Below, in pieces: positions 8,987 to 9,628 of a DNA stretch of 31,023 bases. Position numbers and translations under genes: made by a program. Under the pieces are notes generated by a model that ran no database searches, had not been told where the DNA came from, and worked only from the letters and a program-made list of their open reading frames with translations. Numbering within the stretch: position 1 is the stretch's first letter; each line of letters begins with the position of its first letter. The stretch is taken from the IMG/VR virus record IMGVR_UViG_3300042301_001794, positions 1 through 31,023 of that record. One strand, written 5' to 3'. Source of the stretch: a virus.

Positions 8987-9015
8987 TTGACAGGATAATT
9001 CACTGCTCATATAAG
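8987..9015 (+). promoter_or_regulatory. Strong rightward promoter for the 9064-10426 genes
   Basis: TTGACA (8987-8992), a 17-nt spacer and TATAAG (9010-9015) match the sigma-70 consensus well and have the same two hexamers as the divergent leftward promoter. Between the two -35 boxes lies a very A/T-rich tract (about 8950-8982) that could act as a shared upstream element. It may also feed the terminase and structural genes, since no strong terminator is seen before them. Confidence 0.78.
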
Positions 9016-9030
9016 GGGGCATCAACCACA

Positions 9031-9043
9031 GGGGTTCTGCCCC
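9031..9043 (+). promoter_or_regulatory. 5' leader hairpin ahead of a Shine-Dalgarno site (family member 2)
   Basis: GGGG-TTCTG-CCCC is followed by GCCACTT, then AAGGAGAAATAAA and the ATG at 9064. Flanks and spacing are shared with the hairpin at 9348-9360 and, in shorter form, with the leader at 2406-2419 on the other strand. Confidence 0.6.
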
Positions 9044-9063
9044 GCCACTTAAGGAGAAATAAA

Positions 9064-9324
9064 ATGACATGGATTACGGACGGAACGGATAGCGGCTGGT
9101 CTATTTTAAATGGCGAAAATGAACGCATCGCAACAGTATGGCGCACAGCGCATAACTCTCCGCGCATTGCAAGATTGGTTTCGGCAGCACCAGAATTGCT
9201 GGCTGCGCTGCTTCCATTAGTTGAGGCATCCACTGTTAGTGGCGGCATGATACGTTTTGATGGTGACGAATTGCAAGCCGCTCGCATTGCTATCGCTAAG
9301 GCTACTGGCGCTCAATCGCAATAA
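9064..9324 (+). CDS. Small conserved phage protein
   Basis: This 86-residue protein has an N-terminal strand-rich part (MTWITDGTDSGWSILNGENERIATVW) and a helical part with ARLVSAAPELLAALLPLVEA, ending ARIAIAKATG. The 'APELLAAL ... AIAKA' pattern is very common in small early proteins of phages of alpha- and other proteobacteria; no function is known to me. I chose the ATG at 9064 for its AAGGAGA site; the frame runs back to 8974, over the promoter, and is rejected. It is the first gene behind the strong promoter. Confidence 0.82.
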   Translation: MTWITDGTDSGWSILNGENERIATVWRTAHNSPRIARLVSAAPELLAALLPLVEASTVSGGMIRFDGDELQAARIAIAKATGAQSQ

Positions 9325-9347
9325 AGTGGCTTGGGCCATACCAACCA

Positions 9348-9360
9348 GAGGCCCAGCCTC
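9348..9360 (+). promoter_or_regulatory. 5' leader hairpin ahead of a Shine-Dalgarno site (family member 3)
   Basis: GAGG-CCCAG-CCTC is followed by GCCAAT, AAGGAGAAGTAAA and the ATG at 9380. Compared with the copy at 9031-9043, one stem pair changes from G-C to A-T on both arms, a compensatory change that supports RNA pairing. Confidence 0.6.
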
Positions 9361-9379
9361 GCCAATAAGGAGAAGTAAA

Positions 9380-9628
9380 ATGACAGTCGTTACACAAGCA
9401 ATCGAAACCAAATACCTTGGCGCTACAAATACTAAGGGCGGACGCATCAAAGCAACAGCATGGGCTGGCAGCGTCACGCTTCCATACGACTATGAATTAA
9501 GCGTCGAAAAAAACCACAAGAAAGCCGCTTTTGCATTGCTTCTTAAACTCCGGTGGAACGGCAAGTATGCCCAAGGCGGCAACGCTAAGGGTGACGGCTA
9601 CTATTTTGTAAACGTAGAGGGCGCATAA
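9380..9628 (+). CDS. Hypothetical early protein
   Basis: An 82-residue protein beginning MTVVTQAIETKYLGATNTKG, with strands (GRIKATAWAGSVTLPYDYELS), a helix (KNHKKAAFALLLKLRW) and a Gly/Asn/Lys-rich end. The ATG has an AAGGAGAAGTAAA site like the gene before it; the frame extends back to 9257 but that part overlaps the upstream gene. Its leader resembles that of the preceding gene, suggesting duplication of the upstream segment. Function unknown. Confidence 0.78.
   Translation: MTVVTQAIETKYLGATNTKGGRIKATAWAGSVTLPYDYELSVEKNHKKAAFALLLKLRWNGKYAQGGNAKGDGYYFVNVEGA

Follow-up and report, generated by a model that had tools for sequence, protein, structure and literature searches.

Three genes of a tailed phage start behind leaders of one design, in which a short RNA hairpin is followed by GCCA, a Shine-Dalgarno (SD) sequence and an ATG, and since matched mutations keep the stem paired across dozens of genomes, this hairpin is a real control element in a family of uncultured bacterial viruses. 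The structure, spacing, recurrence and gene-independence of the module are established, and together they describe a compact RNA control element that covaries, is common to an uncultured phage group, is absent from Rfam, is portable, and is locked to the start codon.

The window analysed, i.e. the whole stretch of DNA under study, is the entire IMG/VR record IMGVR_UViG_3300042301_001794 (31,023 bases), which carries phage genes for portal, terminase, capsid and tail proteins and a RecE-like exonuclease. Its comparison with GenBank phages returned zero megablast matches, and leaders A and D (see below) gave only short chance pieces against GenBank phages at the DNA level. No relatives of P0002 were found in GTDB genomes, and the relatives of the capsid protein are spread over genomes of many taxa, so that the host is not fixed by this protein.

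Architecture of the three leaders

Leader A (9020-9066, + strand) lies ahead of an 86-aa gene and behind a predicted promoter, TTGACA-17 nt-TATAAG (8987-9015, +), which has TGAAAAAA just upstream and is conserved at sites found without demanding the hairpin or GCCA. The predicted transcription start is spanned by CATCAACCACA (9020-9030, +), which is unpaired, lies 5' of the hairpin, and is conserved in alignments A1 and A6 as well as at promoter-anchored sites. Hairpin A (9031-9043, +; GGGGU-UCU-GCCCC) has five base pairs, one of them U-G, and a 3-nt loop; GCCA (9044-9047, +) abuts the 3' side of the stem and is followed by the SD sequence AAGGAG (9051-9056, +) and the 86-aa gene (9064-9324, +; phrog_1273, no assigned function). 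Leader B (9348-9382, +) occupies part of the 55-nt gap between this gene and the phrog_3199 gene, and its intercistronic hairpin (9348-9360, +; GAGGC-CCA-GCCUC, 5 bp and a 3-nt loop), which has at least 31 class B relatives, is followed by GCCA (9361-9364, +), AAGGAG (9367-9372, +) and the gene itself (9380-9628, +; 82 aa, phrog_3199, no assigned function, 69 relatives in viral contigs). Leader C (2419-2381, - strand) is found on the opposite strand, 6-7 kb from leaders A and B, behind a predicted promoter (2428-2456, -; TTTACA-17 nt-TATATG) that has relatives with the same architecture. Hairpin C (2406-2419, -; GGGGC-AAAU-GCCCC, 5 bp and a 4-nt loop) has syntenic relatives, and is followed by GCCA (2402-2405, -) and an ORF for a hydrophobic 37-aa protein (2270-2383, -). 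Class A thus denotes a promoter with a 5'-UTR hairpin, class B an intercistronic hairpin for which no promoter is seen, and class C the third leader of the preliminary description of this DNA.

The letters of all three leaders stand where that description placed them, and its third relative, a 5-bp stem with a 4-nt loop on the other strand (2419-2406), was confirmed. The stems of the first two leaders are indeed hairpins, although they had been given four base pairs and a 5-nt loop and are best read with five base pairs and a 3-nt loop. The promoters ahead of leaders A and C are considered sigma70-like on the basis of their conservation; a sigma70 consensus scan of the window listed neither, as both -10 hexamers lack a final T.

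The complete arrangement of hairpin, GCCA, SD sequence and ATG occurs three times in the window, exactly at leaders A, B and C, and in none of 200 dinucleotide shuffles, while the hairpin with GCCA and no further demand occurs four times against a mean of 0.7 in 200 such shuffles. Matches to the covariance model have E-values of 2.4e-8 for hairpin A and 4.8e-10 for hairpin B, both of which are within the training set, and hairpin C is found with an E-value of 0.003 by a model trained on classes A and B alone. The flanks of hairpin C (NNTGG/CCANN; 2427-2400, -) could form an outer helix that lengthens the stem; these flanks co-vary in a few class C copies (AA/TT, GG/CC, GG/TC and GA/TT), and the predicted transcript start in class C would put the TGG of such a helix outside the RNA.

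Pairing, register and recurrence among related phages

The difference between GGGG/CCCC in leader A and GAGG/CCTC in leader B had been proposed to be compensatory, and both partners do differ, but a comparison of two leaders (classes A and B) of one genome is weak when taken alone. Across relatives, pairs 2-5 are altered on both sides, also before genes that appear to be orthologues: those with the protein start MIIFPGDY have the stems GGGAA/TTCCC and GGGGC/GCCCC, and those with the start MTWITDGT have GGGGT/GCCCC in the window and GGGGC/GCCCC in a related locus (L152). Among 30 aligned hairpin variants of classes A, B and D, two-sided changes are found in four of the five pairs, and pairing amounts to 100%, against 52-63% when the strands are slid, with a covariation score of 0.40 compared with 0.17 in shuffles and at most 0.15 with slid strands. 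As the rows of this alignment came mostly from paired sites, the better test is the one in which pairing was not demanded; here each genuine promoter-anchored site is fully paired, none is unpaired, and the one-sided changes are of the G-U kind.

The stems comprise 4-5 bp and the loops 3-4 nt, with energies mostly between -5 and -9 kcal/mol, ten leaders with 4-bp stems reaching only about -5 kcal/mol. The first pair is invariably G-C, and an A stands just before the stem in 97 of the 101 class A and B leaders listed. GCCA follows the stem in about 90% of leaders overall (66 of 71 in class A and 25 of 31 in class B among the matches listed), a fraction that is somewhat inflated because many loci were fetched by patterns containing GCCA; the unselected value, from a scan in which stem and GCCA were free, is 47 of the 51 hairpin sites listed, the others having GCCT (3) or ACCA (1). 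The class B exceptions are GCCT, GTCA, GCTT and GCTA. A variant leader in L366, L375 and L388 has the same promoter and CATCARC, a hairpin of the form GGGC(AATTTC)GCCC, and then ATCC rather than GCCA.

The position of the hairpin relative to the start codon is narrowly fixed. For 875 distinct starts with SD and ATG from 76 loci, 98 hairpin 3' ends fall 18-20 nt before the ATG (23, 59 and 16 at 18, 19 and 20 nt, respectively) where about 8 were expected, the background being about 2.6 per position. The distance from stem to SD is 7-8 nt in 67 of the 70 class A leaders listed, and that from stem to ATG has a standard deviation of 0.84 nt in class A and 0.4 nt in class B. The distance between -10 hexamer and stem shows more variation (13-15 nt in most cases), and no promoter is visible for class B, which argues that the register is tied to translation rather than to the transcription start. 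The predicted start lies about 3-4 nt before the stem in class C and about 8-10 nt before it in class A, with none visible in class B.

The same 875 starts give a second peak of hairpin ends 40-41 nt before the ATG, which we read as matching a UUCG-type hairpin upstream of many class B leaders; a strong hairpin of this type (GGGGGCTTCGGCCCCC), about 40 nt before the ATG and after the upstream gene, with no T-run, is seen in L002, L006, L050 and L053.

With the protein behind leader B as the query, 69 viral loci were obtained, many of which have the same order of hairpin, GCCA and SD upstream, and another group of which has a different hairpin, TGGCGCTAGTGCCA. In this second phage group, 17-19 nt separate the end of the hairpin from the ATG, which is almost the same register. 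Upstream of the phrog_3199 genes concerned (L009, L014, L024, L035 and others), the sequence of TGGCGCTAGTGCCA is fixed, shows no covariation, and is preceded by longer, variable hairpins.

An IMG/VR scan that left the stem free gave at least about 37 distinct sites with strong stems, nearly all of which also have the promoter, and the other matches listed have neither such a stem nor such a promoter, which is a clean split. A scan with a partial promoter and CATCARC, with stem and GCCA unspecified, gave at least 51 hairpin sites of this type and also listed other leader types that lack this hairpin. Tabulation of the 76 loci yielded at least 105 sequence-distinct leaders, namely at least 71 of class A (70 with a GGG-type stem), at least 31 of class B and at least 3 of class C, the last being under-counted by the tabulation pattern, as a separate listing holds 8. 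The downstream proteins have at least 53 distinct starts after class A and at least 20 after class B; with at least 53 different proteins behind class A, the module is gene-independent, and it is repeated at the starts of unrelated genes.

The preliminary description had suggested a covariance-model search for more copies, and with R1, a model of hairpin, GCCA and SD, copies were found in 20 related contigs besides the window, with two to seven matches per contig at E ≤0.5, of which mostly 2-4 are clear. In a typical contig, leaders A and B share one strand at a distance of 200-700 nt, and the opposite strand bears a further copy about 6 kb off; this third copy is promoter-driven in nearly all genomes examined, and many of them have it in the class A form and before a different gene. 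R1 gave marginal matches or none in three distant phrog_3199 carriers and three isolate phages. In 659 bacterial genomes (385 from a class centred on Kaistia and 274 from a second class, centred on Roseateles), no convincing match was obtained under strict filters that weak copies could escape; a single match, inside a coding gene, was judged to be chance. The hairpin-GCCA module therefore looks phage-specific. None of 4227 Rfam covariance models matched at gathering scores, and a single sub-threshold match inside a coding region was also taken as chance.

Both further examples and covariation in relatives, for which the preliminary description had asked, were thus found, and its proposal of a single functional RNA element behind these leaders has strong support from the covariation, the fixed spacing to SD and ATG, the recurrence in related phages and the gene-independence.

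Proposed role and competing explanations

The reading that we favour, with about even confidence, is that of a cis-acting RNA module of early mRNAs that aids stability and translation via the ribosome-binding site; a positive effect on mRNA life and translation is what we infer for it. A hairpin of 4-5 bp would be parked just upstream of the ribosome-binding site, ending near the expected edge of a bound 30S subunit, and would leave the SD sequence and start codon single-stranded while blocking their pairing with upstream sequence. In leaders A and C, its location near the predicted 5' end would hinder 5'-dependent decay, mRNA being stabilised against RppH and RNase E by 5' secondary structure (PMC3997798), and in leader B the operon's second gene would benefit in the same way. 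The conserved, single-stranded GCCA beside the helix indicates that the module is also read by something, be it the ribosome, a host enzyme or a phage protein. A purely passive hairpin leaves GCCA, the invariant first G-C pair and the near-invariant A before the stem unexplained, and as GCCA in particular is left over by the passive reading, a reader of the module is to be expected; judging from its conservation, GCCA is probably read by a factor, for which RNase P is an attractive candidate. Finding such a reader would bring to light either a natural mRNA-processing signal for RNase P or a translational regulator that acts phage-wide, or else explain how a minimal hairpin improves a ribosome-binding site.

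The interpretation in the preliminary description is, as a whole, partly supported, the roles that it named, 5' protection or a translation switch, being candidates. Protection of the 5' end fits classes A and C, class B being without a visible promoter, but an overhang of about 8-10 nt, as predicted for the 5' end of leader A, is longer than one would expect in classical protection. A switch that hides the SD is disfavoured, since the hairpin does not include the SD and the leaders showed no conserved alternative pairing; on inspection, sequestration of the SD by the pyrimidine-rich 3' arm would involve at most about 3 pairs, which are not conserved. The conserved GCCA is explained by neither role.

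That the leaders are operators for a trans-acting RNA-binding regulator is possible but on balance rather unlikely. A phage or host protein on the helix and GCCA would compete with the ribosome or recruit it and thereby control how much of a few early proteins is made, or when, as T4 RegA or the RNA-phage coat proteins do at their targets; the retention of GCCA while stem and loop drift, the fixed 7-8 nt to the SD, and the few copies per genome before unrelated genes would all suit such an operator. However, it comes without a candidate protein, and the loops of these leaders are variable, in which most known protein-bound hairpins differ.

Processing by RNase P is, in our estimate, unlikely, although several features of the leaders recall the acceptor end of a tRNA: A(-1), in 97 of 101 leaders listed, precedes a helix whose first pair is always G-C (G1-C72), and GCCA, or more rarely GCCT or ACCA, comes after it, the minihelix layout of G1-C72 with RCCA being present in 67 of 71 class A and 25 of 31 class B leaders listed. 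The host enzyme would cut at the base of the stem and give a decay-resistant mRNA with a blunt hairpin at its start, and in leader B the cut would separate two cistrons. Some mRNAs and phage RNAs are cut by RNase P (PMC11143913), and hairpins of the size of pMini3bp are cut at the helix junction, with GCC pairing to G292-G293-U294 of the RNase P RNA (PMC12710915). These minimal substrates resemble the phage leaders in having a short hairpin and then RCCA, but pMini3bp is a laboratory model substrate, and the best-cut model hairpin has U(-1), not the A found before the phage stems (PMC12710915). Furthermore, the class B variants GTCA, GCTT and GCTA break RCC, stems of 4-5 bp fall short of the longer stacked helix found in normal substrates, and the tight spacing from hairpin to ATG is not needed by this model. 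Its fullest version, a miniature tRNA-acceptor mimic by which host RNase P would trim early mRNAs and cut an operon between genes to leave blunt, decay-resistant 5' ends 18-20 nt before the start codon, seems to us quite unlikely.

We regard as highly unlikely an element acting in DNA or in transcription, with an inverted repeat past the promoter that binds a repressor or a nascent hairpin that acts on RNA polymerase. Leaders A and C do lie directly behind a strongly conserved promoter, and a divergent, boxA-like leader with two hairpins adjoins leader A, but leader B has no visible promoter, the spacing is fixed to SD and ATG and not to the promoter, GCCA renders the site asymmetric, and the one-sided changes are of the G-U kind. 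The stems have no T-run and are therefore not intrinsic terminators or attenuators; GCCA and the SD follow them, and none of the three leaders was reported by a terminator scan.

Known start-associated elements and a divergent leader

The closest published relative of the hairpin-GCCA leader is SAS/ESAS (Start-Associated Sequences and extended SAS) of the Cluster K mycobacteriophages, short elements that sit where translation of some non-structural genes, unrelated to one another, begins (PMC3203893). SAS is a fixed 13-bp sequence, GGGATAGGAGCCC, that contains the SD, lies 3-7 bp before the start codon and occurs in 11-19 copies per genome; in about half of cases the imperfect 17-bp inverted repeats of ESAS lie upstream; and both are essentially absent from the host, a role in translation being suspected (PMC3203893). 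The two systems share the linkage to starts, the gene-independence, the near absence from the host and, sometimes, an upstream inverted repeat, whereas the present leaders have a 5-bp hairpin before the SD and GCCA after the hairpin, mostly 2-4 copies, and compensatory changes. The SAS 13-mer has two matches with 2 mismatches in the window, neither at a leader, and the leaders have 4-5 bp stems with 3-4 nt loops rather than imperfect 17-bp inverted repeats; on account of the missing 13-mer and the different repeat length, we regard the module as a parallel to SAS/ESAS and not a member. It thus offers a structural parallel to the unexplained mycobacteriophage elements.

The ompA-type stabilising hairpins and the leader of T7 gene 10 also combine a 5'-UTR hairpin with a free SD downstream, in which they resemble the phage leaders. 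To our knowledge each of these serves a single gene and has no conserved GCCA; the phage register, in contrast, is also used between two cistrons, in leader B, where no promoter is visible.

The window also has a fourth leader, class D, which runs divergently from class A (8911-8841, -; promoter 8939-8911, gene 8843-8607). It opens with the promoter and a 9-bp hairpin at the predicted 5' end, followed by a 5-bp hairpin, GCTCTTTGACAATT and an SD, and is conserved in several related phages, with nine distinct sequences aligned and seven records giving model matches above 87 bits. The element GCTCTTTGACAATT resembles boxA of rrn and nut leaders; a scan of nine possible host genomes for the boxA-like pattern gave nothing. 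Class D has two stem-loops just past an early promoter, like HK022 putL (PMC9378689). It could be an antitermination site of the nut/put kind, which we offer as a hypothesis only. In two distant phages (L033, 6385-6440, and L028, 5409-5460), a promoter-linked hairpin, CATCAAG...CTTGATGG or similar, is followed by the boxA-like TCTTTGACAAT or TTCTTTGACATT.
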